From NCBI GenBank assembly GCA_000171835.1, contig ABHC01000001.1, positions 1 to 64,000 of the forward strand: 64,000 bases of DNA, in the 5' to 3' direction. The notes under the pieces are model-generated. The model saw only the letters and a list, made by a program, of their open reading frames with translations, made no database searches and had not been told where the DNA came from. This stretch comes from an alpha proteobacterium BAL199 (GTDB lineage Bacteria > Pseudomonadota > Alphaproteobacteria > Thalassobaculales > Thalassobaculaceae). Positions within the stretch are counted from its first letter, which is position 1. Each line of letters starts with the position of its first letter. This document shows, in pieces, positions 11,064 to 27,726 of this stretch. The translations under genes and the position numbers were made by a program.

Positions 11064-11987
11064 TTACGGTGTGGATCGTCCGCGAACCCGCTCCCGCCAC
11101 GCCAGCACCACCGCGCCGGCGATGATCAACGCCGCGCCGCTGGCCGAAGCGACGGTCGGGACCTCTCCGAACACCGCAAAGTCATACAGGGCCGCGAACA
11201 CCAGGGTGGCGTAGAACAGCGGCACCACGAAACTGGCGTCGCCGCGGCGCAGCGCCAGGATGAACATCGACTGGGCGGTGACCATCACCGTGCCGATGGC
11301 GGCCAGCAGCGCCCACTGCGCCGGGCTTGGCCAGATCCACACGAACGACGCGGCGGTGATCGCGATCGCTGCACCCAGGGCGTTGTTGATCGCGAGGATG
11401 CGCAGCATCGGCTCGCCGGTCCGGTTCTCGCCGCCGGTCAGGCGTTTCACCAGGATGGTCTCCACCCCCATGAAGCAGGCCGACGCCAGGGCGACCAGCG
11501 CGATCGGCTGGAACGCCTCGGCGCCGGGCCGGATCAGCACCAGGGCGCCGACCAGCGCGATCGCCGCGGCACCCCAGCGCCACGGCCCGACCTTCTCCCC
11601 CAGCAACGGGATTGCCAGCACCATCGCCACCATCGGGCTGAGAAAGCTGATCGCCGTCGCATCGGCCAGCCGCATGGCGGCAGCGGCGGCGAACATGGTG
11701 GTGACGGCACCCCAGCCGCAGATCGTGCGGCCGACGTGCACCGGCCAGGCGGCTCCCTTCAGGCTCGGTCGGAACCAGAGCAGGATCGGGGTCAGGGTCA
11801 GCAGTGCGAAGGCGAACCGTCCGGCGCTGATCTGCAGGGGGTGCAGCGCCTCGCCGCCGATACCCCGGCCGAGCGCCTTGCCCATCAGGGTGGTAGCGGC
11901 GATGCATGCGCACGCCGCCAGCATCAACCCGACGGCGACCAGGGGCGAGCTGCGTTGAGGTGCCGACGGTGCGGGCTCAGATGCCAC
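11064..11987 (-). CDS. EamA/DMT family transporter
   Basis: This 307-residue inner-membrane protein has ten predicted helices in two EamA repeats of five. MRLADATAISFLSPMVAMVL and RRGDASFVVPLFYATLVFAA are the conserved ends of each repeat, and GRTICGWGAVTTMFAAAAAM is the hallmark third helix. It starts with GTG inside the end of the CoA-transferase gene (11-base overlap), so it is translationally coupled. DMT proteins export or exchange amino acids and other small metabolites; the substrate is unknown. A second, similar EamA protein is at 34581. Confidence 0.8.
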   Translation of the reverse strand: MASEPAPSAPQRSSPLVAVGLMLAACACIAATTLMGKALGRGIGGEALHPLQISAGRFAFALLTLTPILLWFRPSLKGAAWPVHVGRTICGWGAVTTMFAAAAAMRLADATAISFLSPMVAMVLAIPLLGEKVGPWRWGAAAIALVGALVLIRPGAEAFQPIALVALASACFMGVETILVKRLTGGENRTGEPMLRILAINNALGAAIAITAASFVWIWPSPAQWALLAAIGTVMVTAQSMFILALRRGDASFVVPLFYATLVFAALYDFAVFGEVPTVASASGAALIIAGAVVLAWRERVRGRSTP

Positions 11988-13200
11988 CTTTCGCGCGCTC
12001 CGCGGCGATCTCCGCCTCGCTCATCCCCAGGACCTCGGCGAGCACCTCGTCGGTGTGCTGGCCCAGGGTCGGCGGGGCGTGGCGGTAATGGATCGGCGTG
12101 CCCGACAGCTTCACCGGGTTGGCGATCAGCGGCACCGTGCCCTCTCCGGCCAGCGGATGCGGCAGGTCGACCTTCATGCCGCGCGCCTTGACCTGCGGGT
12201 CCTCGAACACCCGGTCGATGGTGTTGACCGGGCCGCACGGCACGTTGCCGGCTTCCAGCACCGCCACCCACTCGTCGGTGCTGCGGGTCGCGATGTGCTC
12301 GGCGATGCGCGGCGTCAGGTCGGCGCGGTTGCGGATGCGCAGCGGGTTGGTGGCGAAGCGCGGGTCGGCCTTCAGATCGGCGGCCCCGGCGATGTCGCAC
12401 CAGCGCTGGAACTGCCCGTCATTGCCGCAGGCCAGGATGACGTGGCCGTCGGATGTGGCGAACACCTCGTAGGGCACGATGTTGGGGTGAGCGTTGCCGA
12501 GCGGCTTCGGCACGTTTCCGGACACCAGGTAGTTGGTGCCCTCGTTGATCAGCCAGGCGACCTGGGTGTCCAGCAGGCAACAGTCGACGTGCTGTCCCTC
12601 ACCGGTGCGGTCGCGGTGGCGCAGGGCGGCCAGGATCGCGGTCGAGGCGTACATGCCGGTCATCACGTCGGTGATGCCGACGCCGACCTTCACCGGCTCC
12701 ACGCCGGGGGTGCCGGTGATGCTCATGATCCCGCCCATGCCCTGGGCCAGGAAGTCGTAGCCGGCGCGCTTGGCGTACGGGCCGGTCTGCCCGAATCCGG
12801 TAACCGAGCAGTACACCAGCTTCGGGAATTCCTCCTTGAGCTGCTCGTAGCCGAGGCCGAGCTTCGCCAGCGAGCCGACCTTGAAGTTCTCTACCAGCAC
12901 GTCGCACTCGGCCAGCAGCCGTTTGGCCAGCGCGATGCCCTCGGGCTTGGCGAGATCGAGGGTGATCGAGCGCTTGGAGCGGTTGGCGCACAGGTAGTAC
13001 GCGCTCTCGGTGGTGTCCTCGCCGTCGGCACCCTTGACGTAGGGCGGCCCCCAGCGGCGGGTATCGTCGCCCTCGCCGGGCCGCTCGATCTTGATCACGT
13101 CGGCGCCGAGATCGCCCAGCAGCTGGGTGCAGGTCGGCCCGGCCAGGATGCGGGTCAGGTCGAAGATGCGGACACCGTCGAGCGGCAGCGGGGTGGTCAT
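11977..13200 (-). CDS. Class III CoA-transferase (CaiB/BaiF family)
   Basis: This 407-residue CoA-transferase of the formyl-CoA/carnitine type moves CoA between carboxylic acids through an aspartyl-CoA anhydride. The N-terminal FDLTRILAGPTCTQLLGDLG followed by ADVIKIERPGEGDDTR is the family signature, and the catalytic Asp is expected in VGVGITDVMTGMYA. The C-terminal TDEVLAEVLGMSEAEIAALR-like tail is also typical. It begins ATG at 13200, ten bases after a GST gene, and its end overlaps an EamA transporter. The acid is unknown. Class III transferases activate 3-sulfinopropionate, oxalate, carnitine and itaconate in different organisms, so a link with the desulfinase-like enzyme at 20307 is possible but unproven. 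Confidence 0.85.
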   Translation of the reverse strand: MTTPLPLDGVRIFDLTRILAGPTCTQLLGDLGADVIKIERPGEGDDTRRWGPPYVKGADGEDTTESAYYLCANRSKRSITLDLAKPEGIALAKRLLAECDVLVENFKVGSLAKLGLGYEQLKEEFPKLVYCSVTGFGQTGPYAKRAGYDFLAQGMGGIMSITGTPGVEPVKVGVGITDVMTGMYASTAILAALRHRDRTGEGQHVDCCLLDTQVAWLINEGTNYLVSGNVPKPLGNAHPNIVPYEVFATSDGHVILACGNDGQFQRWCDIAGAADLKADPRFATNPLRIRNRADLTPRIAEHIATRSTDEWVAVLEAGNVPCGPVNTIDRVFEDPQVKARGMKVDLPHPLAGEGTVPLIANPVKLSGTPIHYRHAPPTLGQHTDEVLAEVLGMSEAEIAAERAKGGI

Positions 13201-13210
13201 GGAAGCGTCC

Positions 13211-13837
13211 TCAGCGGGGTGTCAGCGGGTTCATGGCGGCTTGCGTGGGCACGGACTCGCGCACCGAGGACAGCGCCGCATACGGCTCCAGCCAAGCGGT
13301 CAGGGCCGGGCGGTCGGCGCGCCAGTCCGGGACCAGTTCGTAGAAGTCGACCATGCCGAGTGCGGCCACCAGGGCAAGGTCGCCGTAGGTAATGGCCGGT
13401 TCGGTCGCGGGCGCAGCGACAGTGCGGTCCAGGTGGTCGAGGGCGCGGATGGCGCGCTGCTGCTCGACCTGCAGGATGAAGGCGGACTGTTCCGACTTTG
13501 CGCGCCGGGTCTCGCGCGACCAGTTGGTGACACCCTCCAGGAAGCCACTCATCAGGCTCTCATGGGCCTGGGCCTGCCAGTCGTTGGCGCCGGGCAGCGA
13601 CGGCGGTCGGGAGCTGCGCTGGTCGAGATAGCCGCAGATCAGCCGGGATTCGCCAAGCGCCAGGTCGCCGTCGACCAGCAGCGGGATCTTGCCGAGCGGG
13701 CCATGCCGCAGGGCGGCACTGTCCGGGGTGCGCAGCGGCACCTGAACGAGCTCGATGCCGTCCATGATCCCGCCTTCGATCGCGACGATCCGGCAGATCC
13801 GCGCGTAGGGCGAATTGGGGGTGTAGTAGAGTTGCAT
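13211..13837 (-). CDS. Glutathione S-transferase family protein
   Basis: This 208-residue protein has an N-terminal thioredoxin-like GST domain (MQLYYTPNSPYARICRIVAI, then GKIPLLVDGDLALGESRLIC with the cis-Pro and the Glu-Ser glutathione-binding pair) and an all-helical C-terminal domain. It starts at the ATG at 13837, fifteen bases downstream of the methyltransferase stop and ten bases before the CoA-transferase, so it is part of a minus-strand operon. It could conjugate or isomerise an electrophile; the substrate is unknown. Confidence 0.8.
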   Translation of the reverse strand: MQLYYTPNSPYARICRIVAIEGGIMDGIELVQVPLRTPDSAALRHGPLGKIPLLVDGDLALGESRLICGYLDQRSSRPPSLPGANDWQAQAHESLMSGFLEGVTNWSRETRRAKSEQSAFILQVEQQRAIRALDHLDRTVAAPATEPAITYGDLALVAALGMVDFYELVPDWRADRPALTAWLEPYAALSSVRESVPTQAAMNPLTPR

Positions 13838-13851
13838 GGGGCTTGCTCCGG

Positions 13852-14580
13852 TTACGGTCGGACCGCGCTCAGGATTATCTGCCCGGCGGTCATCCAGTGC
13901 AGGTCGACGCCGGTGAAGCCCGCCTCGCGCAGCCAGTCCAGGTGTTCGACCACGGTCGACGGCTGGTCCATCGGGTCGAGGGCGGCGTGGCGGAAATGGT
14001 TCCAGTCGGCGCGTCGGAAGAGGTCGAAGCCCGTGCGGTTCCCGTCGAGCTCCAGGGAGCGCTGTTCTACCGCGTCGTCCCACAGATCGCCAGCGATCGC
14101 GGCACCGGCGTCGGTTGCCGGGCGGATCACGTCGGCCAGCACGAACACCCCGCCGTGGGCGAGGGCGCAGAACAGGTCGGCGAACAGAGCGCGTTTGCCG
14201 CAGCCGTCCAGGTGGTGGACCGCCAGCGAGGAGACGGCGGCGCGCAGCGGGGTATCGAATCGTCGCCAATCGGTGGCAGCGAGGTCGATTTGGCGAGTCA
14301 CCAGCCGGTCGGTGTCGCCGACGCGCTGTCTAGTGGCGGCAAGCATGCTGTCGGAGCCGTCATAGGCGTGGACGCGGGTGTCCGGCAGCCGGTCCAGCAG
14401 GGCGGCGGTCAGCAGGCCTTCGCCGCAGCAGATCTCCAGCACGTCGCCAATGGCGGCCGAGCGGGCCACCCGGTCGACGATCAACGCGATCTGCGTCTCG
14501 CGTTGCGGCACCGCGTAGCGCGACAGGTCGCGGTAGACGGTGCTTTCGGCCTCGGTCCAGGCGTGGTCAGGGTCGCTCAT
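13852..14580 (-). CDS. SAM-dependent class I methyltransferase
   Basis: This 242-residue Rossmann-like methyltransferase has motif I VLEICCGEGLLTAALLD, then YDGSDSMLAATRQRV for the acidic SAM-ribose contact, AAVSSLAVHHLDG as motif IV and GGVFVLADVIRP as motif V. This layout matches small-molecule methyltransferases of the Methyltransf_25/12 group. The C-terminal part (TVVEHLDWLREAGFTGVDLH) is common to this group. It is the first gene of a minus-strand run with GST, CoA-transferase and EamA genes, divergent from the GntR gene. The methyl acceptor is unknown. Confidence 0.75.
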   Translation of the reverse strand: MSDPDHAWTEAESTVYRDLSRYAVPQRETQIALIVDRVARSAAIGDVLEICCGEGLLTAALLDRLPDTRVHAYDGSDSMLAATRQRVGDTDRLVTRQIDLAATDWRRFDTPLRAAVSSLAVHHLDGCGKRALFADLFCALAHGGVFVLADVIRPATDAGAAIAGDLWDDAVEQRSLELDGNRTGFDLFRRADWNHFRHAALDPMDQPSTVVEHLDWLREAGFTGVDLHWMTAGQIILSAVRP

Positions 14581-14774: not shown

Positions 14775-15491
14775 ATGCCGGAGGACAACGCGAAGACCGA
14801 GCCACTGAAGCGCTGGTCGTTTGACCGCAAGCGACCGTTGGTGGATCAAGTATACGACGATCTGCGCCAGCGGATACTGGCATTCGAGCTGGCACCCGAC
14901 GCCAGCCTGTCTCGGCAGGATCTGTCCGAGCACTATGGCGTAAGCCAGACGCCACTGCGCGACGCGATCGGAAAGCTTGAGCGAGACGGGCTAGTCGAAA
15001 TCTACCCACAGTCCAAGACCGTCGTGACGCGGATCGACGTGGGACTGGTGCGCGAGACCCAGTTCATGCGCACCGCCTTCGAGGTCGAGATCGTCGGCAT
15101 GTTGGCGGCGGATCCGGGCAAGTCGAAGATCGCACCGGCCGAAGAGTCGGTCGAGCGCATGCGATGGACGCTTCAACGCGACCCCGGTTTCGACGAGTTC
15201 AACCGGCTCGACAAGGAGTTCCACCGCAACCTCTATGCGGCTGCCGACAAACTCGGCCTGTACGAGGTGGTGGAGTCGCGCAGCGGCCAGCTTGACCGGA
15301 TTCGCCGGTTGCACCTGCAGATGCGCGAAGAGAGCAAGTCGGCCGAGGTGGTGGCCGACCATGCCCGGATCGTGAGCGCGATCCGGACTTCCGACGTCGA
15401 GAACGCCCGTGCGGCCATGCGCGTGCACCTGTCGGGGACCTTGAGCCGGCTGGATAAACTGCGCGAACGTTTCCCCGGCTGCTTCGCCTGA
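14775..15491 (+). CDS. GntR-family regulator, FCD (FadR) subfamily
   Basis: This 238-residue regulator has a winged helix at residues about 20-88 (LVDQVYDDLRQRILAFELAP, then LSRQDLSEHYGVSQTPLRDA and IGKLERDGLVEIYPQSK) and an all-helical FCD ligand domain with the Asp/His metal-ligand pattern (FNRLDKEFHRNLYAAADKLG, VVADHARIVSAIR, MRVHLSGTLSRL). FCD domains usually bind carboxylates with a metal ion. It faces the convergent dctMQP genes, and TAATATATTA palindromes lie in its own promoter and in that of dctP. It is therefore probably the local repressor of the TRAP importer, relieved by the transported acid or a derivative. Confidence 0.85.
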   Translation: MPEDNAKTEPLKRWSFDRKRPLVDQVYDDLRQRILAFELAPDASLSRQDLSEHYGVSQTPLRDAIGKLERDGLVEIYPQSKTVVTRIDVGLVRETQFMRTAFEVEIVGMLAADPGKSKIAPAEESVERMRWTLQRDPGFDEFNRLDKEFHRNLYAAADKLGLYEVVESRSGQLDRIRRLHLQMREESKSAEVVADHARIVSAIRTSDVENARAAMRVHLSGTLSRLDKLRERFPGCFA

Positions 15492-15511: not shown

Positions 15512-16792
15512 CTACATCAGCAGGTTCGGCAGGAACAGCACGATGTCCGGCACCAGTGCCATCGCCGCGATCAACGCCGCCATTGTGACGACGTAGGGCC
15601 AGGACCAGCGCACGAACTCGGCGAAGTCGCAGCGCAGGATGCCGCAGACCGTGTACATGATGACGCCGACCGGCGGCGTGTTGCCGCCGACCGACACCAG
15701 GATGATCAGCACCACGCCCATGTGCACCGGGTCGAAGCCGACATGCACCAGGGCCGGCAGCACCAGCGGCGTGACCAGCAGCACGTTGACGGTCGCCTCC
15801 ATCACCGTACCGGCAACGAACACGATCGCCAGCACCACGAACAGGGTGACGTACCGGTCGCCCGGCAGGCCGGCGAGGAAGCCGGTGATGGCGCTCGGCG
15901 CCTGCTCGACGGTGAGCGCATGGCCGAGGACGGCGGCCATGACGATGATCAGCATCACCATGCCGATGTCGAAGATCGAGTCGCGCATCGCGTCGATCAG
16001 CTTCGCCCAGGTCAGTTCCCGGTAGATCAGCACTCCAACGGCGAGTGCGTATAACACCACCACCGCGCCGGCTTCGGTGGCGGTGAACAGGCCGAAGCGG
16101 AACCCGATCAGCAGCAGGACTGGGAACATCAGTGCCCAGATGCAATCGACGAAGCTGGCTGCCAATTCCCGCAACCGCGGTTTCTCGGCCAACTCGGGTT
16201 GGTATCCCATGCGTCGTGCGATCAAAGACGTCACGGCCATCAGCACCGCGGTCATCAGCAGGCCGGGGACGACACCGCCAAGCAGCAGCCGGCCGATCGA
16301 GACTTCGCTGATGAAGCCGAACAGGATCAGACCGATGCTGGGCGGGATGGTGGCGGTGATCACCGACGAGAAGGCGATTACCGAGGCGGTGAAGCCGCGG
16401 GCGTAGCCTTGCCGCTCCATGGCGGGGCCAAGCAGTCGGGACTCCATCGCCGCGTCGGCGACCGCCGAGCCGGAGATGCCGCCCATCAGCGCGCTCAGCA
16501 TGATCGAGACCTGAGCAAGGCCGCCGGTCATCCATCCGGTCAGCAGCCGCGCGAACACCAGCAGCCGGTCGGTGATGCCGGTGGCGTTCATCAGGTTGCC
16601 GGCCAGGATGAAGAACGGTACCGCCAGCAGCGGGAAGGACTGGGTGGCGCCGTACATGCGCTGCATTGCGACAGTGAGCGGCATGTAATCGCCGACTAGG
16701 AACACCGGCACCGTCGAAAGGCCGAGGGCGAAGGCGACCGGCACCCCGATTGCCAGGAACACGAAGAACAGGGTCGCGACGACGGTCAGCAT
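15512..16792 (-). CDS. dctM: TRAP transporter large permease DctM
   Basis: This 426-residue, about 12-helix inner-membrane subunit carries substrate and sodium ions in tripartite TRAP transporters. Diagnostic segments are AVPFFILAGNLMNATGITDR, SALMGGISGSAVADAAMES, TATIPPSIGLILFGF and SVGGNTPPVGVIMYTVCGIL. GTG ATG overlaps the small-permease stop in a TGATG junction; the ATG at 16792 is chosen. It is the last gene of the dctP-dctQ-dctM operon, ending 20 bp from the convergent GntR gene. The substrate class (C4-dicarboxylate-like, keto or hydroxy acid, or sulfonate) cannot be read from this subunit. Confidence 0.9.
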   Translation of the reverse strand: MLTVVATLFFVFLAIGVPVAFALGLSTVPVFLVGDYMPLTVAMQRMYGATQSFPLLAVPFFILAGNLMNATGITDRLLVFARLLTGWMTGGLAQVSIMLSALMGGISGSAVADAAMESRLLGPAMERQGYARGFTASVIAFSSVITATIPPSIGLILFGFISEVSIGRLLLGGVVPGLLMTAVLMAVTSLIARRMGYQPELAEKPRLRELAASFVDCIWALMFPVLLLIGFRFGLFTATEAGAVVVLYALAVGVLIYRELTWAKLIDAMRDSIFDIGMVMLIIVMAAVLGHALTVEQAPSAITGFLAGLPGDRYVTLFVVLAIVFVAGTVMEATVNVLLVTPLVLPALVHVGFDPVHMGVVLIILVSVGGNTPPVGVIMYTVCGILRCDFAEFVRWSWPYVVTMAALIAAMALVPDIVLFLPNLLM

Positions 16793-17319
16793 CACATGAC
16801 GTCCCGGCCGTCGGCACTGCTGTCGGGCAGGCCGCGCAGATGGCGGACGATCTGCTCGACCACGGTGATGATCATCAGGGCGTAGGCGACCGGCAGGGCA
16901 GCGGCGGCCCAGGACGACGGCACGCCGGTCATCGGCAGCGGCCGGAAGTCCGACAGCCGCGTCAGCAGCGAGCCGTAGTAAACGAGCGCCACCAGCAAAA
17001 CCGCTATGGTGAGCTTGATCGTGAGATCCAGCAGGAACCGCGCCGTCGGCGGCAGCAGCCTGACCAGCACGTCGATCCTGAAATGCCCGGCGCGCTGCAG
17101 GGTCAGGTCGGCCGCCAGCATCGCCAGCCAGACGAACAGCGCCTGGGCGACTTCGTCCGACCAGATCACCGGGTTGCCGGTGTAGCGGCCGACTGTGCCG
17201 GCCAGGACAACGGCTACGACGATTCCCAGCAGGGCGATGGCGGCGATCATCTCGGCGCGTCTGAGCAGGACGAGGGCGCGTGTCAGCAGTCCGGATACCA
17301 AGACAACCCCCAGGGTCAT
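16792..17319 (-). CDS. dctQ: TRAP transporter small permease DctQ
   Basis: This 175-residue protein has four membrane helices of the DctQ/YiaM family. PVIWSDEVAQALFVWLAMLA is the conserved WxxE..R-type segment and LVRLLPPTARFLLDLTIKL the following interfacial helix. It forms the membrane domain with DctM, whose start overlaps its stop. The ATG at 17319 precedes a basic amphipathic stretch and is the natural start. It lies 87 bp downstream of dctP in the same operon. Confidence 0.85.
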   Translation of the reverse strand: MTLGVVLVSGLLTRALVLLRRAEMIAAIALLGIVVAVVLAGTVGRYTGNPVIWSDEVAQALFVWLAMLAADLTLQRAGHFRIDVLVRLLPPTARFLLDLTIKLTIAVLLVALVYYGSLLTRLSDFRPLPMTGVPSSWAAAALPVAYALMIITVVEQIVRHLRGLPDSSADGRDVM

Positions 17320-17406: not shown

Positions 17407-18399
17407 TTACTTCTTCAGGGTTTCGCGGACGGTGCCGACGAGTTGGGTCAGCTTCATCTTCTCCCAGACCGGCTTGACCGCCTCGCGAAACGGCGTGACG
17501 TCGACGGCGCTGACACGCACGCCGGTTGCCTTGACGTCGGCGAAGATCTTCGCAGCTCCGTCGTCATTGGCCTTGAGGGCAGACGCACCCCAGCGCTTCG
17601 CCTCCTCGGTCAGGATCTGGCGCAGGTCGGCTGGCAGCGACTGCAACCAGGCGTCGGAAACCAGCAGCCCGCTCATCAGGTAGATGTGGCCGGTCAGCGT
17701 GACGTCGCTGATCACCTCATAGAGCTTGGCGCCCCAGATCGCCGCAGGCTGAGCCTCGGCCCCGTCGATCACGCCGGTTTGCAGCGACGGATAGACTTCG
17801 GCCCAGGGCAGCGGGGTGGCGACAGCACCCATGGCGCCGATGGTCTCGACCCAGAGCGGCTGCCCGATGGTCCGCACCCGCACGCCCTTCAGGTCGGCCG
17901 GCGTGCTGATCGGCTTTTTGGTCAGCATGTGGCGGGCGCCCTGATACCAGTTGAAGGATAGTAGGGTCAGGCCGCTCTTCTTCTTCAGCTGTTCGTTCCA
18001 GCCGGCGAAGGTATCGGATTCGACGAACCTTGCGAGTTCATCGACCGATTCGAAAGCGTACGGGGCGATCAGCACGTTGAACTCAGGCACGAACACCGAG
18101 ACCCGTGAGGCTTCGACGAAGGTGCCGACATTCGCCCCGGCGGCGGCCTGGTCCATCATGTCCTGGGTGTCGCCGAGCTGCGAGCTCGGGAAAAGCTGGA
18201 CTTCGACCTTACCACCAGTGCGCTCGGCGACCGACTTCCTGAAGCCCTCCGCCGCGACCTGCAGCGGGTCGGTCGGGGCGAGCACGGAGCCGAGCTTGAG
18301 GGTGTAGTCGGCGCCGAATGCGGTCGCCGACGAGCCGGCGACGAATGGAATGGCGGCAAGCAGCGCGGCGCCTAGCGCCAGCGACGTGCGGAACTTCAT
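17407..18399 (-). CDS. dctP: TRAP transporter substrate-binding protein DctP
   Basis: This 330-residue periplasmic binding protein starts at 18399 (MKFRTSLALG) after GGGAGGAAG and has a clear signal peptide with likely cleavage after AFGA. The mature part begins YTLKLGSVLAPTDPLQVAAE, typical of the DctP family. GVRVRTIGQPLWVETIGAMG contains the conserved arginine that binds the ligand carboxylate, and YPSLQTGVIDGAEAQPAAIW is the second-lobe signature. It binds an organic acid outside the membrane and delivers it to DctQM. The operon is probably controlled by the GntR protein at 14775. Confidence 0.9.
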   Translation of the reverse strand: MKFRTSLALGAALLAAIPFVAGSSATAFGADYTLKLGSVLAPTDPLQVAAEGFRKSVAERTGGKVEVQLFPSSQLGDTQDMMDQAAAGANVGTFVEASRVSVFVPEFNVLIAPYAFESVDELARFVESDTFAGWNEQLKKKSGLTLLSFNWYQGARHMLTKKPISTPADLKGVRVRTIGQPLWVETIGAMGAVATPLPWAEVYPSLQTGVIDGAEAQPAAIWGAKLYEVISDVTLTGHIYLMSGLLVSDAWLQSLPADLRQILTEEAKRWGASALKANDDGAAKIFADVKATGVRVSAVDVTPFREAVKPVWEKMKLTQLVGTVRETLKK

Positions 18400-18684: not shown

Positions 18685-20310
18685 TCAGATCCGGCCGTCG
18701 TAGCTCTTGCGGTCGATCCGGCAGGCGCAGACCGTGAAGGTGTCGGCGGTCAGCCCTTCGCGGATCGCGGCGTCCAGGGTGGCGCGGTCCTCACAGACCA
18801 CGCCGCGGCCGCCGAGCTTCTCGGCGATGCCGGCGAAGTCGGTTTCCGGGAAGTCGACGCCGGCGTTGGCGTAGGTCATGGCCCGCTGCTTCAACTCGAT
18901 CAGCGCCAGCGAGGTATCGACGAACACCACCACGATCACCGGCAGCCTCGTGTCGCGCAGGGTGACCAACTCACCCAGGATCATCTCCAGCCCGGCGTCG
19001 CCGGTGAAGGCGATCACGGCACGTTCCGGCGACGCAATCTTGGCGCCGGTGGCCAGCGGCAGGGCACAGCCCATGGTGCACAGCCCGGTCGACTGTAGCA
19101 CGGCGTGTGGCACGAAGCTGTCCCACACCTGGCTGGTCAGGATTCGGTGGGCGCCGCTGTCGATGGTGATCACCGCGTCGCGCGGGGCCGCCTGGCGCAC
19201 CGTGGTGACGATGGCCGCCGGGCCCCAGGCCTCGTTCTGGCCATAGGCGCCGGCCAGTGCCTGCCGGGCCTTCGCCGGCTCGCCGCCGGGCCAGCGCGTA
19301 GCTTTGGGCTCCACGCCGTCGCCGATCACACCCAGGGTGGCGCCGACGTCGCCGACGAAGCTGACCGAGGCGTGGTGCATGTAGTGGGTGTTCGGCGCCG
19401 CGGCGATCTCGATCACCCGCTGGGTGCCGGGATTCCAGACGTTGCGCCAGCCGACCCGCATCTCGATTGGGTCGTAGCCGGCCAGCACGATCAGGTCGGC
19501 ATCCTTCAGGAGCGGCAGAATCTGGCGGTCGGCGACCGGCGACAGTCCGGCGCCGCCCAGCGACAGCGGCGAGTCGTCTGGAACCACGCCCTTGGCCTTG
19601 TAGGTAGCGACTGTCGGGATGCCGAAGCGTTCGGCGAACGCCCGGACCTTGGCCTCGCCGCCCTGGCTCAGCACGTCCAGGCCAACCACCATGATCGGCT
19701 TCTCCGCCCCGGCCAGCCAGTCGCGAGCGGTGTCCAACGCTGCGCCGGAAGCGGGAACGCCGGCCAGACCGGGCGAGCGGCGCACCGGCAGGTCGGATGG
19801 TGTGATCTCGGCCGCCGCGACCGAGATCGGCAGGTCGAGATGCACCGGGCCAGGGCGGGGGTCCAGTGCGATCGCCACCGCCTTGTCGGCCTGCGCCTCG
19901 ATGGCGCCGACGGCGATCCGGAAGCTGGCCTTGACCACCGGGCGGAACACCTGCTGGTGGTCGAAGACCTGGTGGTTGTAGGTGACCGCCTCATCCTCGT
20001 CGACGCAGCCACTGACCACGATCAACGGGACCCGGTCCTGCTCGGCGTTGGCGGCGACGTTCAGCGCGTTGGCGACACCCGGGCCGACGGTGGCGACCAG
20101 GATGCCGGGCGCGCCGGTCATGTGGTAGACGCCCTCGGCCATGAAGCCGGCCGCGTTCTCGTGCTTGGCCAGGACGAAGCGGATGCCGGCCCGTTCCAGC
20201 GCGTCGATGAAGGTCAGGACCTCACCGCCGGGAATGCCGAAGGCCCAGCGGCAGCCGGCGTCGTACAGGCGTCGCGCGAGAGCGTCGGCGACGCGGATCG
20301 TCTCGGTCAT
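18685..20310 (-). CDS. Thiamine-pyrophosphate enzyme of the acetolactate synthase superfamily
   Basis: This 541-residue enzyme has the three TPP-enzyme domains. The N-terminal Pyr domain has GIPGGEVLTFIDAL and catalytic Glu in LAKHENAAGFMAEG, the central domain has PIMVVGLDVLSQGG, and the C-terminal PP domain has FTGDAGLEMILGELVTL, where the usual GDG is GDA, followed by IVVVFVDTSLALIELKQRAM. These features allow 2-keto acid decarboxylase or carboligase activity. It starts in an ATGA overlap with the upstream acyl-CoA dehydrogenase homologue, so the two act in one pathway. It does not look like typical Xsc (sulfoacetaldehyde acetyltransferase), and its substrate is unknown. Confidence 0.8.
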   Translation of the reverse strand: MTETIRVADALARRLYDAGCRWAFGIPGGEVLTFIDALERAGIRFVLAKHENAAGFMAEGVYHMTGAPGILVATVGPGVANALNVAANAEQDRVPLIVVSGCVDEDEAVTYNHQVFDHQQVFRPVVKASFRIAVGAIEAQADKAVAIALDPRPGPVHLDLPISVAAAEITPSDLPVRRSPGLAGVPASGAALDTARDWLAGAEKPIMVVGLDVLSQGGEAKVRAFAERFGIPTVATYKAKGVVPDDSPLSLGGAGLSPVADRQILPLLKDADLIVLAGYDPIEMRVGWRNVWNPGTQRVIEIAAAPNTHYMHHASVSFVGDVGATLGVIGDGVEPKATRWPGGEPAKARQALAGAYGQNEAWGPAAIVTTVRQAAPRDAVITIDSGAHRILTSQVWDSFVPHAVLQSTGLCTMGCALPLATGAKIASPERAVIAFTGDAGLEMILGELVTLRDTRLPVIVVVFVDTSLALIELKQRAMTYANAGVDFPETDFAGIAEKLGGRGVVCEDRATLDAAIREGLTADTFTVCACRIDRKSYDGRI

Positions 20311-21542
20311 TCGGCAGCCTGAATCCGCAGCGCGTCGGCGGCGGCGAGCTTGGCATGGCCGTCGCGGGTCTGCGGCAGCTTGCGGTCGAGCAGGCGGGAG
20401 GCGACGACAGTGCGCAGGATCTGCGCGGTGCCGCCGCCGATTGTGAACATCCGAGCGTCGCGCAGGATGCGCTCCATCGGCCAGTTGCGGGAATAGCCGC
20501 GGGCGCCATGGACCTGCAGAGCGTCGCTGGCAACCTTGATGGCCATCTCAGAGGCGAAAATCTTCGACTGGGCAGCCGCCAGGCTGTCGGGAAACGGGTT
20601 GCCGTTCTGCCCGGCGGTCGACGCCGCCCGCCAGATCAGCGCGCGCGCCGCTTCGAGCTGCACGCTCATGTCGGCCAGCATCCACTGCAGTCCCTGGAAC
20701 TCGGCGATCGGCCGGCCGAACTGCTCGCGCTCCTTGGAGAACGCCAGCGCCCGGCGGTAGGCGCCTTCGGCGAGTCCGAGGGCCACGGTCCCGGCACCGA
20801 CGCGCTGGGCGTTGTAGGCGTTCATCAGGTCGGCGAAGCCGCGCTTCAGACCGCTCGGCGGCATCACCAACCGATCGGCCGGTAGCGCCAGGTCCTGGAA
20901 CAGCACTTCGGTCTCGGGAATGCCGCGCAGCCCCATGGTCGGCTCGCGCGCGCCGATCACCAGACCGTCGTCCTCGCCGCGGAACGCCAGGAAGCCACCA
21001 ATGCCCTGCTCGGCGCCGGACTCGTCGAACACTCGGGCGAAGATCAAGTGCAGGCGGGAGACGCCGCCGCCGGTGATCCAGTGCTTCTTGCCGTTCAACA
21101 CGTAGGTGTTGCCGCGCTTGTCGGCGCGGGTGGTCATCTCGGTGGCAGCGGATCCGGCATCCGGCTCGGTGATGCAGATCGCCGGCTTGTCACCCGACAG
21201 CACGAATTCGGCGGCGCGCTTCTTCTGGGGCTCGGTGCCGTACTGCATGACGGCCGAGATCGCCCCCATGTTGCCCTCGACCACGACCCGACCGGTGACG
21301 CCGCACTGCGCCGCCATCTCCTCGATCACCAGGGTAACGTCCATGTACGACCGGCCGGGGCCGCCATAGGCCTTCGGAACGGTCATGCCCATGAATCCGG
21401 CGTCGGTCAGGGCCTGCACATTATCCCACGGATAGCTCTCGGTGCGGTCGACCTCAGCGGCGCGCGGGGCAACTACCCGCTCGGCCAGATCGCGGGCTTT
21501 CTCGCGCAGAGCTTCCTGTTCGGGGGTCAGGCCGAAGGTCAT
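20307..21542 (-). CDS. acdA: Acyl-CoA dehydrogenase superfamily, probable 3-sulfinopropanoyl-CoA desulfinase
   Basis: This 411-residue flavoprotein has the ACAD fold (FGLTPEQEALREKARDLAER, ICITEPDAGSAATEMTTRA, HWITGGG, REQFGRPIAEFQGLQWMLAD, QVHGARGYSRNWPMERILRD). The classical catalytic Glu is missing at both known places: the C-terminal site reads TIGGGTAQI, and the helix-G site reads NAQRVGAG with Gln246. Arg85 is present in GVTGRVVVEGN. From memory, Arg84 and Gln246 are the distinguishing residues of 3-sulfinopropanoyl-CoA desulfinase of Advenella mimigardefordensis, which releases sulfite without oxidising the acyl chain. The start at 21542 has GAGAGGA upstream. It is in an operon with the TPP enzyme and divergent from a LysR gene. 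Confidence 0.75.
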   Translation of the reverse strand: MTFGLTPEQEALREKARDLAERVVAPRAAEVDRTESYPWDNVQALTDAGFMGMTVPKAYGGPGRSYMDVTLVIEEMAAQCGVTGRVVVEGNMGAISAVMQYGTEPQKKRAAEFVLSGDKPAICITEPDAGSAATEMTTRADKRGNTYVLNGKKHWITGGGVSRLHLIFARVFDESGAEQGIGGFLAFRGEDDGLVIGAREPTMGLRGIPETEVLFQDLALPADRLVMPPSGLKRGFADLMNAYNAQRVGAGTVALGLAEGAYRRALAFSKEREQFGRPIAEFQGLQWMLADMSVQLEAARALIWRAASTAGQNGNPFPDSLAAAQSKIFASEMAIKVASDALQVHGARGYSRNWPMERILRDARMFTIGGGTAQILRTVVASRLLDRKLPQTRDGHAKLAAADALRIQAAE

Positions 21543-21650: not shown

Positions 21651-21669
21651 CAGATCTTCAGAATATCTG
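21651..21669. promoter_or_regulatory. LysR-type binding site between divergent genes
   Basis: CAGAT-N9-ATCTG is a perfect interrupted dyad containing the T-N11-A pattern of LysR regulators. It lies 10 bases upstream of the lysR start and about 110 bases from the divergent acyl-CoA dehydrogenase homologue, the standard layout for autoregulation and control of the neighbour. Confidence 0.6.
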
Positions 21670-21679
21670 ATGATATGCA

Positions 21680-22600
21680 ATGAATTTACGCCACCTTGAG
21701 ACCCTGCTGGCCATCGCCGAGTCGGGGAGCTTCGCCGCCGCCGCGGAGCGGGTGGGGGTCACTCAATCGGCGGTGTCCATGCAGATGCAGGCGCTGGAAG
21801 CCGCGTTGGGGACAGAACTGTTCGACCGTGCCCGGCGGCCACCGGTGTTGAGCGAGATCGGTCTGACCCTGCTGGTGCATGCCCGTGCCGTGGTGCGAGC
21901 GGCGGACGATCTGTCGGCGGCGGCATCCGGAACGGTGCTGCTGGGCCGCCTCCGGTTGGGGGTCATTCCCACCTCGGCGACCGGCTTGGTGCCGGATGCG
22001 CTGGCGTTGTTGGCGGCGCGTGCCCCGGACCTGCAGATCCGCATCGAGTCCGGCCTGTCGGCCGACCTGGCCCGACGGGTATCCCAGGGGGCGCTGGACG
22101 CGGCCCTGGTGACGGAGACGCCCAGGTTGGAGCGTGGGTTGGTGGTCCGGCCGATCCTGGAGGAGCCGCTGCTGGTGGTTGCCCCGCGCTCCGCCGCCGG
22201 GCCGCCGGCCCGGACGCTGTTGCGGCGCCTGCCGTTCGTGCGATTCAACCGGCGCACGGGTGTCGGCCGAGTGATCGACGCCGCCCTGCGGCGCGACCGC
22301 GTGGTGGTTACCGAGATCATGGAACTGGATTCGATCGAGGCGATCCTGGCGATGGTCGGACGCGGCCTCGGAGTTGCCGTCGCGCCGGCCGGGTCGGTCG
22401 TCGGGGCGGTTGCCGAAACCGTACACGCCCTGCCGTTCGGCGATCCTCCGGTGCTGCGCCGGGTCGGCCTGCTGGAACGCGAACGACCGGCCGGTGCTGA
22501 GGCCAATCCGACGACCGCGGCGTTGCTGGAGGTGTTCCGGACGGTGGTCCAACCGCCGGCCGTGGTGGTCTATGACAGTGTCGGCTTGCCGGGAATGTGA
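21680..22600 (+). CDS. LysR-family transcriptional regulator
   Basis: This 306-residue regulator has an N-terminal winged helix-turn-helix (MNLRHLETLLAIAESGSFAA, then AERVGVTQSAVSMQMQALEA, residues 1-60) and a type 2 periplasmic-binding-like effector domain beginning LRLGVIPTSATGLVPDALAL. It is divergently transcribed from the desulfinase-like/TPP operon with a LysR-type dyad in the 137-base gap, so it probably controls that operon in response to a pathway metabolite. The ATG at 21680 starts exactly at the conserved N-terminus. Confidence 0.85.
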   Translation: MNLRHLETLLAIAESGSFAAAAERVGVTQSAVSMQMQALEAALGTELFDRARRPPVLSEIGLTLLVHARAVVRAADDLSAAASGTVLLGRLRLGVIPTSATGLVPDALALLAARAPDLQIRIESGLSADLARRVSQGALDAALVTETPRLERGLVVRPILEEPLLVVAPRSAAGPPARTLLRRLPFVRFNRRTGVGRVIDAALRRDRVVVTEIMELDSIEAILAMVGRGLGVAVAPAGSVVGAVAETVHALPFGDPPVLRRVGLLERERPAGAEANPTTAALLEVFRTVVQPPAVVVYDSVGLPGM

Positions 22601-22620: not shown

Positions 22621-23145
22621 ATGCTGACTCCGGTATCTTCACGAGGGCCGGCACCGGTCGATCCGGACGCGCTGGGCGACGATGCCATTGGACAGTTGGC
22701 CCGCTATTGGCAGGAACTCGCCGACGCGGCCGGCGGGGTGCCCCTGCGCTCGGCCTTCGATCCCGGCCGGGTTCGCAGATTGCTGCCGCGTCTGATTGTG
22801 GTCGAGCATCTGGGCGATCATGATTTTCGGTACCGCCTGCTCGGCACCGAAGTGGATCACTTTACCAAGGCTCGCTACACCGGCCGCCGAACGTCCGAGA
22901 TTGCGGGTCATGGATATGGCAACCGCATCCATGCCCTGTACATGGCCACGTTGGCAGCGGCCCGGCCGATCGGCATGACGCTCCCATATGTCGGGACCAG
23001 TTCGATCTGTTCGTCGGTGCGGCAGATCGCGGTGCCGTTCCGCACCGGGGACGAACCCGACCAGATCATCTCGCTGATCGAGTTCGAACTGCGCCAGAAC
23101 CTGATACCGGCGATGATCCCGGCGGAACAGCGTCGGTTGATCTAA
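22621..23145 (+). CDS. PAS_5-type single-domain sensor protein
   Basis: This 174-residue protein is nearly all one PAS_5-like domain: LARYWQELADAAGGVPLRSA followed by FDPGRVRRLLPRLIVVEHLG, then FRYRLLGTEVDHFTKARYTG and a C-terminal strand QIISLIEFELRQNL. It has no signal peptide, membrane helix or output domain. Proteins of this type are abundant in Rhodospirillales and their function is largely unknown. It begins 20 bp after the lysR stop. Two relatives are in this window (2390-2869, broken; 29409-29942). Confidence 0.7.
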   Translation: MLTPVSSRGPAPVDPDALGDDAIGQLARYWQELADAAGGVPLRSAFDPGRVRRLLPRLIVVEHLGDHDFRYRLLGTEVDHFTKARYTGRRTSEIAGHGYGNRIHALYMATLAAARPIGMTLPYVGTSSICSSVRQIAVPFRTGDEPDQIISLIEFELRQNLIPAMIPAEQRRLI

Positions 23146-23189: not shown

Positions 23190-23951
23190 ATGACCGCGTT
23201 TGCCCTCCCCGAACTGGACCTGATCGTCCTCGTCGCTGTTGCATTCGCCGTTGCCGGCGGGATCAAGGGGGTCGTCGGGCTTGGATTGCCGACGATCTCG
23301 GCGGCGATCATGGCCAGCGTGATCGACCTGCGGGTCGCGGTCGGCATCCTGATCATCCCGCTGCTGGTCACCAATCTGTGGCAGGTCGTTCAGGTCGGCG
23401 CGGTCGGCACGCTGGTGCGGCGGTTCGGGGTGCTGAACATGGCGGCGGGCGCCGGCCTGTGGATCGGGACCGAGATCCTGTTCGCCATCGATCCGCGCTG
23501 GATGCAGATGGGGCTGGGCGTTCTGCTGATCCTGAACGCCATCCTGCAGGTCACCGGCGGCATACCGGTGATCCCGCGTGCACGGGAAGCCGCTCTGTCG
23601 GTGCCGGTCGGGCTGGTCTCCGGGATCATCGGCGGCATGACCGGCAGCCAGGGGATCGTGATCGCGGTCTATCTCGCCAGCCTGAACCTGACCCGCGACG
23701 AATACGTCCAGGGCGTTGGGCTGTCGTTCTTCCTGACCGGCATCATCTGGGTCGTGGCGATCGCTGCGAACGGCGGGATCACCCTGGAGACGCTGCCGTT
23801 GTCACTTCTCGCGCTGGCGGTCGCACTGGCGGCGATGGCGGTGGGCACCCGGGTGCGCCACCGCCTGCCGCAGGCGCGGTTCCGTCAGGCGGTGTTCGTC
23901 ATCATGGCCCTGATGGGCGCGAACCTGCTGCGCCGGGCGGTGATGGGCTGA
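23190..23951 (+). CDS. TauE/SafE family sulfite/sulfonate exporter
   Basis: This 253-residue inner-membrane protein has about eight helices in two repeats. GGIKGVVGLGLPTISAAIMA and VSGIIGGMTGSQGIVIAVYL are the duplicated TauE/SafE motifs. Family members export sulfite, sulfoacetate or other anions during organosulfonate degradation. It follows the PAS gene by 44 bases and sits 2.4 kb from the desulfinase-like gene, whose product would generate sulfite, so sulfite efflux is a sensible but unproven role. The family also contains transporters for unrelated anions. Confidence 0.8.
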   Translation: MTAFALPELDLIVLVAVAFAVAGGIKGVVGLGLPTISAAIMASVIDLRVAVGILIIPLLVTNLWQVVQVGAVGTLVRRFGVLNMAAGAGLWIGTEILFAIDPRWMQMGLGVLLILNAILQVTGGIPVIPRAREAALSVPVGLVSGIIGGMTGSQGIVIAVYLASLNLTRDEYVQGVGLSFFLTGIIWVVAIAANGGITLETLPLSLLALAVALAAMAVGTRVRHRLPQARFRQAVFVIMALMGANLLRRAVMG

Positions 23952-26610: not shown

Positions 26611-26991
26611 TCAGGGTAGAGGCCTGGGAATCAGGAGCACGCCGTCGAGGTTGGCGAAGTGCCGATCGCAGGTGAGTAGATCGGCGCCGCGAGCGAGGGC
26701 GGTCGCATAGACGACGGCGTCCGCAGTCGCCAGTTTGTGCTTGGCGCTCAGCTCGGCAGCTGCCAGCGCAATCGGCGTATTGAGTTCGGCGATAACGCAG
26801 ACCTGGGTGAAGGCAATCACCTGATCAGCCTTGTCTTCGCCCACTTCGCGCGTGAGCCATTTTGCGAGTTCGAGCTGAACGATCGTCGGTACCAGCCAGC
26901 GGTCTCGCTCAGGCAGTTCCGGGGCAAGCTCGGTGCCGACCCGTGATCCGATCAGCCACTCGATCCAGGCGGAAGTGTCGACAAGCCGCAT
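26611..26991 (-). CDS. vapC: PIN-domain toxin of a VapBC pair
   Basis: This 126-residue PIN-domain ribonuclease has acidic metal-binding residues in LVDTSAWIEWL (first Asp), VQLELAKWL (Glu), ATADAVVYATAL (Asp) and LLTCDRHFANLDG (last Asp), the complete VapC quartet. Its ATG overlaps the antitoxin stop in TGATG, giving translational coupling. It probably cleaves tRNA or other RNA when released from the antitoxin. Confidence 0.85.
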   Translation of the reverse strand: MRLVDTSAWIEWLIGSRVGTELAPELPERDRWLVPTIVQLELAKWLTREVGEDKADQVIAFTQVCVIAELNTPIALAAAELSAKHKLATADAVVYATALARGADLLTCDRHFANLDGVLLIPRPLP

Positions 26992-27209
26992 CACACCCGA
27001 TCGGAACGGTCGCGATACGGTTCGACCGTGGCGCCGCGCGCCAGGCCGGCTAGATCCTTCGGCTCCGGCACCGGTACGATCAGCACGCCTTCACCTTTGG
27101 GAATGAAGGCGAACTCCTGGCCTGCCCGCCAATGCTGGGCCGTTCGAACGTCCTTGGGAATGGAGATCTGGAACTTCGCCGACAGGCGGGTCGTGGTCTT
27201 TCTTGTCAT
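26991..27209 (-). CDS. vapB: AbrB/SpoVT-type antitoxin of a VapBC pair
   Basis: This 72-residue protein has an N-terminal swapped-hairpin (AbrB/MazE-like) DNA-binding domain, TTTRLSAKFQISIPKDVRTA followed by FAFIPKGEGVLIVPV, and a C-terminal tail that would occupy the toxin active site (LARGATVEPYRDRSDRV). The ATG at 27209 begins the conserved domain. It precedes vapC with a TGATG overlap, and an imperfect dyad upstream (27225-27249) is the likely autoregulatory operator. Confidence 0.85.
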   Translation of the reverse strand: MTRKTTTRLSAKFQISIPKDVRTAQHWRAGQEFAFIPKGEGVLIVPVPEPKDLAGLARGATVEPYRDRSDRV

Positions 27210-27224
27210 TACGATTGTCCGATC

Positions 27225-27249
27225 GATATAGCTTAGGTAAGACAATATC
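27225..27249. promoter_or_regulatory. Candidate vapBC operator
   Basis: The palindromic core CTTAGGTAAG (27232-27241) is flanked by GATAT and ATATC at nearly symmetric positions, 16 bases upstream of the vapB start. This placement fits the autorepression typical of toxin-antitoxin operons. It also overlaps the likely promoter of the divergent DUF35 gene. Confidence 0.5.
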
Positions 27250-27342
27250 ACCCGACTCGGTTCCCGCACCAGTCGGGCTTTCCTCGGTAGACCATCCGCG
27301 CAATCCTTTGGTCGACTGTCGAACAAGGAGCGAGACTCCCAC

Positions 27343-27726
27343 ATGACCGCACAAGGCCCTGACGCCACCTACTTCGCCCACCTCGCGAAGGGCGACTGGC
27401 GGATCCAGAAATGCCGCGGGTGCGGCGAGCACGTGTTTCAGCCCCGGGTGATGTGCCCGTCCTGCGGGGCGGAGGCATTCGATTGGGTGGCGCCGTCGGG
27501 GAAGGCCGAAGTGCATTCGACCACCGTGGTCCGGCGGCGGGCCGAGCAGGGCGGCGACTACAACGTGGCACTGATCGATCTTGCCGAAGGCGTGCGGATA
27601 ATGAGCCGGGTTGAGGGCGTTGATCCATCGGACGTGACGATCGGCATGGCGGTGACCGCACGCCTTGCCGAGCAGGACGGCGAAACCATCGTGGTTTTCG
27701 ATCCGGCGGGGAAGGGTACCCAATGA
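27343..27726 (+). CDS. DUF35 Zn-ribbon/OB-fold protein
   Basis: This 127-residue partner protein has a rubredoxin-like zinc ribbon with two Cys pairs (IQKCRGCGEHVFQPR and VMCPSCGAEAFDW) followed by an OB fold (STTVVRRRAEQGGDYNVALI). DUF35 proteins bind SCP2-thiolase-like enzymes and channel acyl-CoA substrates; the ChsH2 DUF35 domain with Ltp2 forms an aldolase in steroid degradation. Here the thiolase-like gene begins inside its stop codon (ATGA overlap), so a stable complex is very likely. Confidence 0.85.
   Translation: MTAQGPDATYFAHLAKGDWRIQKCRGCGEHVFQPRVMCPSCGAEAFDWVAPSGKAEVHSTTVVRRRAEQGGDYNVALIDLAEGVRIMSRVEGVDPSDVTIGMAVTARLAEQDGETIVVFDPAGKGTQ

Follow-up and report, generated by a model that had tools for sequence, protein, structure and literature searches.

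The 64,000-nucleotide stretch analysed here, called the window below, comprises positions 1 to 64,000 of contig ABHC01000001.1 (assembly GCA_000171835.1) from the alpha proteobacterium BAL199, a relative of Thalassobaculum. On its minus strand, a gene starting with an ATG at position 21542 encodes a protein of 411 amino acids with an acyl-CoA dehydrogenase fold, which is very probably a 3-sulfinopropionyl-CoA desulfinase, as judged from its sequence. The stop codon of this gene and the start codon of the next one overlap by 4 bp (shared ATGA), and this second gene encodes a thiamine diphosphate (ThDP) enzyme. Genes for the TRAP importer components DctP, DctQ and DctM follow in this order on the same strand, and beyond an oppositely oriented GntR-type regulator gene lie those for a methyltransferase-fold protein, a glutathione S-transferase (GST)-like protein and a class III CoA-transferase (Table 1). 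An operon joining the desulfinase and a ThDP enzyme had been proposed in an earlier account of this DNA, made from its letters without database searches (hereafter the sequence-only reading). The ATGA overlap agrees with this proposal, and the pairing is conserved among relatives (see below). The CoA-transferase and a TauE-family permease gene on the other side of the desulfinase were absent from that account.

The window protein is a member of the desulfinase family

A search of PDB sequences with the window protein returned AcdDPN7 of Advenella mimigardefordensis (PDB 5AF7/5AHS) as the top match with 520 bits, followed by a runner-up with 265 bits; the full-length alignment with AcdDPN7 has 61.9% identity. 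The NCBIfam equivalog model NF042439 ('SulpropCoADesulf') scored 673 bits and thus passed its cut-off of 600, and none of the other 23 NCBIfam models listed for the protein reached its own cut-off. Since 0 of 14 control genomes yielded a match to NF042439 at 1e-140, the model does not simply catch any dehydrogenase.

Arg85, Gln246 and Gly370 of the window protein occupy the alignment columns of AcdDPN7 residues Arg84, Gln246 and Gly366, in agreement with the desulfinase signature and the residue numbers given for Arg85 and Gln246 in the sequence-only reading. Schurmann and co-workers reportedly found in 2015 that Arg84 of AcdDPN7 is essential and that positions 246 and 366 are the catalytic-base positions of dehydrogenases. 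As had also been claimed, both of these positions are non-acidic in the window protein (Gln246 and Gly370), that is, the Glu or Asp expected of an acyl-CoA dehydrogenase at one of them is absent. The Arg/Gln/Gly triad is kept in 118 of 118 desulfinase family loci, a count in which three are the window's own gene again and several genes are present from two collections. The genome has 19 other matches to PF00441, and seven of these paralogues were compared: none has the complete triad, and at position 246 or 366 six carry Glu and one carries Asp. One of them (L002; L and G numbers denote loci and genomes) also has Arg in the '84' column with an incomplete triad, and therefore the triad, not Arg alone, is the signature. 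In addition, 120 family rows share 22 near-invariant positions that none of the seven compared paralogues has.

A tree of 87 family rows including AcdDPN7, with the seven paralogues as outgroup, was built by a quick search with SH-aLRT supports and no bootstrap. It separates the family from the paralogues on a starred branch (SH-aLRT 98), to which a warning of a long outgroup branch applies. AcdDPN7 is nested together with desulfinases encoded on plasmids of Diaphorobacter, Paraburkholderia phenoliruptrix and Cupriavidus necator N-1 (starred group, 99), and the window protein groups with those of Thalassobaculaceae. Its identity with the desulfinase of Thalassobaculum litoreum DSM 18839 (L040) is 85%. 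Because AcdDPN7 lies within the family, the window protein is no outlying relative of it; it also stands apart from the compared dehydrogenases and not inside a dehydrogenase clade with an alternative Glu, a placement that would have refuted the sequence-only reading. Family model, nearest structure, triad and tree thus support the earlier suggestion of a C-S cleaving enzyme rather than a dehydrogenase. The enzyme is a new member of an already known family, and what is new is its conserved pathway setting. According to the available part of PMC8360864, the known desulfinase attacks the sulfino group and catalyses no redox reaction.

The desulfinase and the ThDP enzyme are a conserved pair

The desulfinase was detected in 29 of 36 genomes of the window's family. 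A close ThDP gene (at least 57% identity) is present in 26 of these 29 genomes and adjoins the desulfinase gene in all 26; in G012 this match is split in two and in G009 it is truncated, and the three genomes with desulfinase that have no close ThDP gene are G001, G002 and G013. The ThDP gene was found in none of the seven family genomes without desulfinase, several of which are incomplete (Fisher p 1.4e-5 for the association, with kinship ignored). In a class sample of 289 genomes, in which the best five or six candidates per genome were scored, 37 genomes have the desulfinase, 18 the ThDP enzyme (E 1e-110 or better) and nine have both as compared to about 2.3 expected (p 7.5e-5, kinship again ignored); the two genes are adjacent in six of these nine. 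Among named desulfinase loci, i.e. the best 80 of at least 570, which are labelled as alpha- and gammaproteobacteria, Binatota and Acidimicrobiia, the ThDP gene adjoins in 29, and seven contain a CoA-transferase of at least 55% identity.

The window's CoA-transferase is 72% identical to that of an operon comprising desulfinase, ThDP enzyme and CoA-transferase (L087) and 60-64% identical to those adjoining annotated desulfinases in Mesorhizobium loti, P. phenoliruptrix and Diaphorobacter (L118, L119 and L120, respectively). By its family (PF02515) and its closeness to these four transferases, it is a candidate enzyme of the Act type. Orthologues (at least 68%) are present in 18 of the 36 family genomes, all 18 of which also have the desulfinase (p 0.004, kinship ignored). 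Judging from these sequence relationships, activation of 3-sulfinopropionate is a likely role for this enzyme, and there is a good probability that ThDP enzyme and CoA-transferase act in the same pathway as the desulfinase.

The ThDP enzyme represents an uncharacterised subfamily

The NCBIfam models scoring best with the ThDP enzyme are PRK08322 (325 bits, cut-off 509) and the AlsS model PRK08617 (266.5 bits, cut-off 510), and none among the best 25 of 54 matched models reached its cut-off. Assignment as an acetolactate synthase was rejected, no cut-off being reached among the NCBIfam models listed. The predicted structure has a mean pLDDT of 86.7. Because acetolactate synthases, an 'HKA synthase', 2-hydroxyacyl-CoA lyases, carboxyethylarginine synthase and oxalyl-CoA decarboxylases obtain similar scores in searches with it, the fold is uninformative about the reaction. 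The enzyme resembles AlsS (PDB 5D6R, 1OZF, 4RJI) in its Pfam domains, full-length alignment and fold (Z ~40), but the two share only ~26% identity, and the ThDP enzyme has invariant residues of its own in 14 aligned homologues, e.g. Arg285 and Arg389. A pairing of class III CoA-transferase and ThDP enzyme is also found in the oxalate module, where formyl-CoA transferase (class III) is combined with oxalyl-CoA decarboxylase. In contrast to that module, the ThDP enzyme of the window scores 207 bits with AlsS as compared to 128 bits with oxalyl-CoA decarboxylase chains.

Further genes in the window

The remaining genes around the pair are listed in Table 1. The structure nearest to the TRAP binding protein, 4p1e, provides a molecule name only, from which no substrate can be read. 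Homologues of the GST-like protein with at least 35% identity were found only in L038 and L126 among the loci searched. Past the TauE/SafE-family gene follow a 2-hydroxyacid dehydrogenase gene and then a gamma-glutamyltransferase-like gene. In the divergent promoter, an imperfect T-N11-A palindrome, TCAGATATTCTGA, is located at 21658-21670 on the minus strand, approximately 10 bp before the LysR start, and is a possible regulator site. A scan for T-N11-A style sites, for which the pattern was poorly chosen, gave 110 matches as compared to 143 expected by chance and shows nothing. Further away, inspection by eye suggests a PIN-domain/AbrB-type toxin-antitoxin pair (26611-27368, minus strand) and genes for a DUF35 protein and, after it, a thiolase-like protein (27343-28880, plus strand).

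Table 1. Genes of the desulfinase locus, with window coordinates and the evidence for each assignment.
Feature	Coordinates	Strand	Evidence
Class III CoA-transferase	11977..13200	-	PF02515, 462 bits
GST-like protein	13211..13837	-	PF13417
Methyltransferase-fold protein	13852..14580	-	PF13649; homologue near desulfinase-ThDP pair in L038-L042
GntR/FCD-type regulator	14775..15491	+	PF07729, PF00392
TRAP large permease DctM	15512..16795	-	TIGR00786, 387 bits (cut-off 268)
TRAP small permease DctQ	16792..17319	-	PF04290, 105 bits
TRAP solute-binding protein DctP	17407..18399	-	PF03480, 251 bits; nearest structure 4p1e, 290 bits
ThDP enzyme, acetolactate-synthase-like fold, uncharacterised subfamily	18685..20310	-	Pfam TPP_enzyme N/M/C
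3-Sulfinopropionyl-CoA desulfinase (very probable; acyl-CoA dehydrogenase fold), Arg85/Gln246/Gly370	20307..21542	-	NF042439, 5AF7, triad, tree
Divergent LysR regulator	21680..22600	+	PF03466/PF00126; homologues adjoin desulfinase in many relatives
PAS_5 protein	22621..23145	+	PF07310, 38 bits (cut-off 22)
TauE/SafE-family permease, candidate sulfite exporter	23190..23951	+	PF01925, 75 bits (cut-off 32.6)

Gene order in other loci hints at the upstream steps

Replicon pBB1 of C. necator N-1 (L124, unannotated in the collection used) encodes a ThDP enzyme 55% identical to that of the window, 6.7 kb from a desulfinase. The first part of this locus contains genes for a CoA-transferase, the desulfinase and TctC, followed on the other strand by a transport protein gene and two LysR-type genes; in the second part, which lies 5 kb from the CoA-transferase and desulfinase genes, the ThDP gene is flanked by those for an aminotransferase and an aldehyde dehydrogenase, the latter followed by an M20 deacylase gene. 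The aminotransferase scores best with the model of aspartate transaminase PRK06107 (452 bits, cut-off 617), the aldehyde dehydrogenase with that of succinate-semialdehyde dehydrogenase (SSADH; 606 bits, cut-off 646) and the CoA-transferase with that of succinate-glutarate CoA-transferase (497 bits, cut-off 750), that is, by sequence score, families acting on glutamate- and succinate-like acids. In L083, the order CoA-transferase, desulfinase, ThDP enzyme is followed by an aminotransferase gene, and in L087 and L057 a sarcosine-oxidase-like gene follows the CoA-transferase gene; for L087, genes of the delta and alpha subunits were confirmed.

The sulfinic group is a bioisostere of the carboxyl group, and 3-sulfinopropionic acid is formed from homohypotaurine by GABase, a combination of gamma-aminobutyric acid (GABA) transaminase and SSADH, as stated in the available part of PMC11396700. 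The sulfinate analogues of glutamate and 2-oxoglutarate are homocysteine sulfinate and 2-oxo-4-sulfinobutanoate, and those of succinate semialdehyde and succinate are 3-sulfinopropanal and 3-sulfinopropionate, the CoA ester of the latter being the known desulfinase substrate. On account of gene order and this analogy between sulfinate and carboxylate, a decarboxylase role is our best guess for the ThDP enzyme. Decarboxylation of 2-oxo-4-sulfinobutanoate in particular is a tentative lead resting on gene order, to which we give somewhat less than an even chance. Among the matches listed from open-licence PMC papers, there was no bacterial sulfinobutanoate or sulfinopropanal pathway and no ThDP partner of the desulfinase.

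Several other genes recur near desulfinases. MsrB is encoded close by in eight of the 80 named loci (L068-L072, L074, L097, L103) and MsrA in two (L088, L098). A TPR protein of ~465 residues is encoded near the desulfinase in 20 of the 80 (L053, L056, L058, L060, L063 and 15 others). It had no PDB match at 1e-4. A possible likeness to human TTC38 was considered and dropped, as the available text on TTC38 names only unidentified metabolites. One actinobacterial clade of 16 rows (L064, L066, L073, L090, L112, L114 and others) has a P450 gene beside the desulfinase gene, often along with glutamine-synthetase-like and aldehyde dehydrogenase genes, which suggests a gamma-glutamylated amine as precursor. 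A Mesorhizobium loti plasmid (L118, 1319-21763) encodes desulfinase, CoA-transferase, a PF03601 membrane protein annotated as sulfate exporter, a P450 and a glutamine-synthetase-like protein, as well as acyl-CoA carboxylase and methylmalonyl-CoA mutase, which would link released propionyl-CoA to central metabolism. On a plasmid of Parasedimentitalea marina (L121, 12001-13059), the desulfinase match is in four pieces without an annotated gene and adjoins an annotated ThDP gene, reflecting either decay or a sequencing error.

A proposed catabolic pathway ending in desulfination

On balance, we favour the explanation that the desulfinase ends a catabolic pathway encoded by the surrounding genes, in which the ThDP enzyme acts upstream as a 2-oxo-acid decarboxylase. 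The identity of the desulfinase and the conserved grouping are backed by sequence, tree and gene order; the other steps we infer. The TRAP importer would bring an organosulfur acid into the cell, and the parent compound could be a sulfinate amino acid resembling glutamate, for example homocysteine sulfinate. The most likely reaction of the ThDP enzyme would then be decarboxylation of 2-oxo-4-sulfinobutanoate to 3-sulfinopropanal, which a dehydrogenase encoded elsewhere would oxidize to 3-sulfinopropionate. Following activation to the CoA ester by the class III CoA-transferase, the desulfinase would cut the C-S bond of 3-sulfinopropionyl-CoA to yield propionyl-CoA and sulfite. By analogy with AcdDPN7, Arg85 would hold the sulfinate in this enzyme, which appears to have lost the catalytic base. 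The TauE-type permease may export the sulfite.

A number of observations weigh against this explanation. The reaction of the ThDP enzyme is settled by no NCBIfam equivalog or PDB family. The aminotransferase and the SSADH-type enzyme of pBB1 both score below the cut-offs of their best models, the row of aminotransferase, ThDP enzyme and SSADH was seen in one replicon only, and neither an aminotransferase nor an aldehyde dehydrogenase gene adjoins the desulfinase-ThDP pair in the window. The CoA-transferase gene is 7 kb away from the desulfinase gene with an opposite-strand gene in between, and five genomes of group g9 that hold the pair gave no CoA-transferase match at 1e-140. In the class sample, the two genes lie apart in three of the nine genomes having both, and 28 of the 37 desulfinase genomes have no ThDP match at 1e-110; likewise, the examined DNA of 51 of the 80 named desulfinase loci contains no ThDP gene. 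Finally, 17 of 57 ThDP loci adjoin genes for osmoregulated periplasmic glucans and have no desulfinase within 6 kb, and in the tree of ThDP enzymes glucan and desulfinase contexts are interleaved, starred branches requiring at least three switches between them. The ThDP enzyme is therefore not dedicated to desulfination; the same ThDP chemistry probably serves two ends.

The alternative that survives best is that 3-sulfinopropionate arises from 3-mercaptopropionate through a thiol dioxygenase, with the ThDP enzyme being a fellow traveller that has another job. Such a route is described for Advenella and Variovorax in the available text of PMC5373536 and PMC6370202, and Diaphorobacter and P. 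phenoliruptrix have genes annotated as cysteine dioxygenase close to that of the desulfinase. In the genome of BAL199 (completeness 100), however, PF05995 (CDO_I), the thiol dioxygenase family searched for, had no match at E 0.001, and therefore the Advenella/Variovorax route is not evident there. Moreover, PF05995 exceeds its cut-off in only 12 of the 36 family genomes as compared to 29 with desulfinase, and the 4-bp overlap and the adjacency in every family genome having the ThDP gene speak against a mere fellow traveller. We regard this alternative as unlikely.

Less probable still is an alternative in which ThDP enzyme and CoA-transferase supply other processes, e.g. glucan acylation by OpgC, with an ordinary acyl-CoA of the succinate type or with a carboligation product, and the desulfinase relative of this clade acts on a different acyl-CoA that bears a beta leaving group. 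The glucan-context loci (L123, L132-L138, L141, L150-L153, L155-L158) contain OpgC, often with OpgG/MdoG and OpgH; 12 of the 17 include a CoA-transferase, and eight have the full row of ThDP enzyme, CoA-transferase, TPR protein, OpgC, OpgG (MdoG) and OpgH. The existence of these clusters and the interleaved contexts in the ThDP tree favour this alternative. Of the other ThDP loci, 34 are within 6 kb of a desulfinase and six, including L124, are near neither; none is near both. These 57 loci are an uneven set, as the desulfinase was the route to 29 of them. The class sample was drawn independently of the desulfinase; there, eight of 18 ThDP loci are in glucan context and six adjoin a desulfinase; seven of the eight glucan-context genomes have no desulfinase at 1e-150, and in the eighth, G182, it lies on another contig. 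Succinyl is named in the available part of PMC4726272 as the most widely distributed acyl group on periplasmic glucans, and the word CoA-transferase is absent from the matches listed among open-licence PMC papers for OpgC with CoA-transferase. Against an ordinary acyl-CoA as substrate, the triad and the 22 family-specific positions are kept in the compared desulfinase loci regardless of their neighbours, and AcdDPN7 lies inside the family, not outside. The TPR protein of the glucan clusters and the one encoded near desulfinases are related (34% identity).

As a long shot, the ThDP/CoA-transferase module might in both contexts start from a sulfinate amino acid resembling glutamate and make 3-sulfinopropionyl-CoA or a similar sulfur-containing counterpart of succinyl-CoA. 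This product would feed the desulfinase in Thalassobaculaceae, SAR116 and others. In other alphaproteobacteria, whose OpgC-OpgG-OpgH clusters include related ThDP and CoA-transferase genes but have no desulfinase close by, OpgC would attach the acyl group to periplasmic glucans to give sulfinate-decorated glucans.

It is highly improbable that the window protein has an unrecognised base and works as a true acyl-CoA dehydrogenase or reductase: although the fold family is kept (PF00441, 152 bits) and a motif close to the docking site for electron-transfer flavoprotein is reported even in the known desulfinase (available part of PMC8360864), the protein is non-acidic at both known base positions, splits from the paralogues on the branch noted above despite the long-branch warning and reaches only 311 of the 640 bits required by the acryloyl-CoA reductase model. 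We therefore reject a plain dehydrogenase on residues, family score and tree.

Relation to known pathways and implications

The catabolic pathway favoured here has clear counterparts. The window desulfinase shares with AcdDPN7 62% identity over the full length, the equivalents of the triad and a place in the same tree, but differs in its neighbours, which are the ThDP enzyme and a TRAP importer. In contrast, AcdDPN7 of Advenella is accompanied by a family III acyl-CoA transferase, 3-mercaptopropionate dioxygenase and TctC proteins, as far as the available part of PMC5373536 describes. The 3,3'-dithiodipropionate/thiodipropionate pathway of Advenella and Variovorax, as covered by the available text, resembles the window in having CoA-transferase, desulfinase and a LysR gene, and has the products propionyl-CoA and sulfite in common with the proposed route; unlike in Advenella and Variovorax, no PF05995 dioxygenase was found in the window's genome. 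The word thiamine is absent from the main text of the pathway papers PMC5373536 and PMC6370202. A ThDP enzyme had been called foreign to the described pathway, and indeed none appears in the available text of these two papers or among the matches listed from open-licence PMC papers.

So far, the desulfinase is known from the degradation of 3,3'-dithiodipropionate and 3,3'-thiodipropionate (PMC5373536 and PMC6370202, available text). Given its presence in 29 of 36 family genomes and 37 of 289 class genomes, together with the breadth of the named loci, it is probable that 3-sulfinopropionate, or a related compound, occurs commonly in nature as a metabolite. Both the conservation of the ThDP partner and the gene row of C. 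necator N-1 point to a natural precursor resembling homocysteine sulfinate which, if this is true, would pass into the cycles of carbon and sulfur in the form of propionyl-CoA and sulfite.

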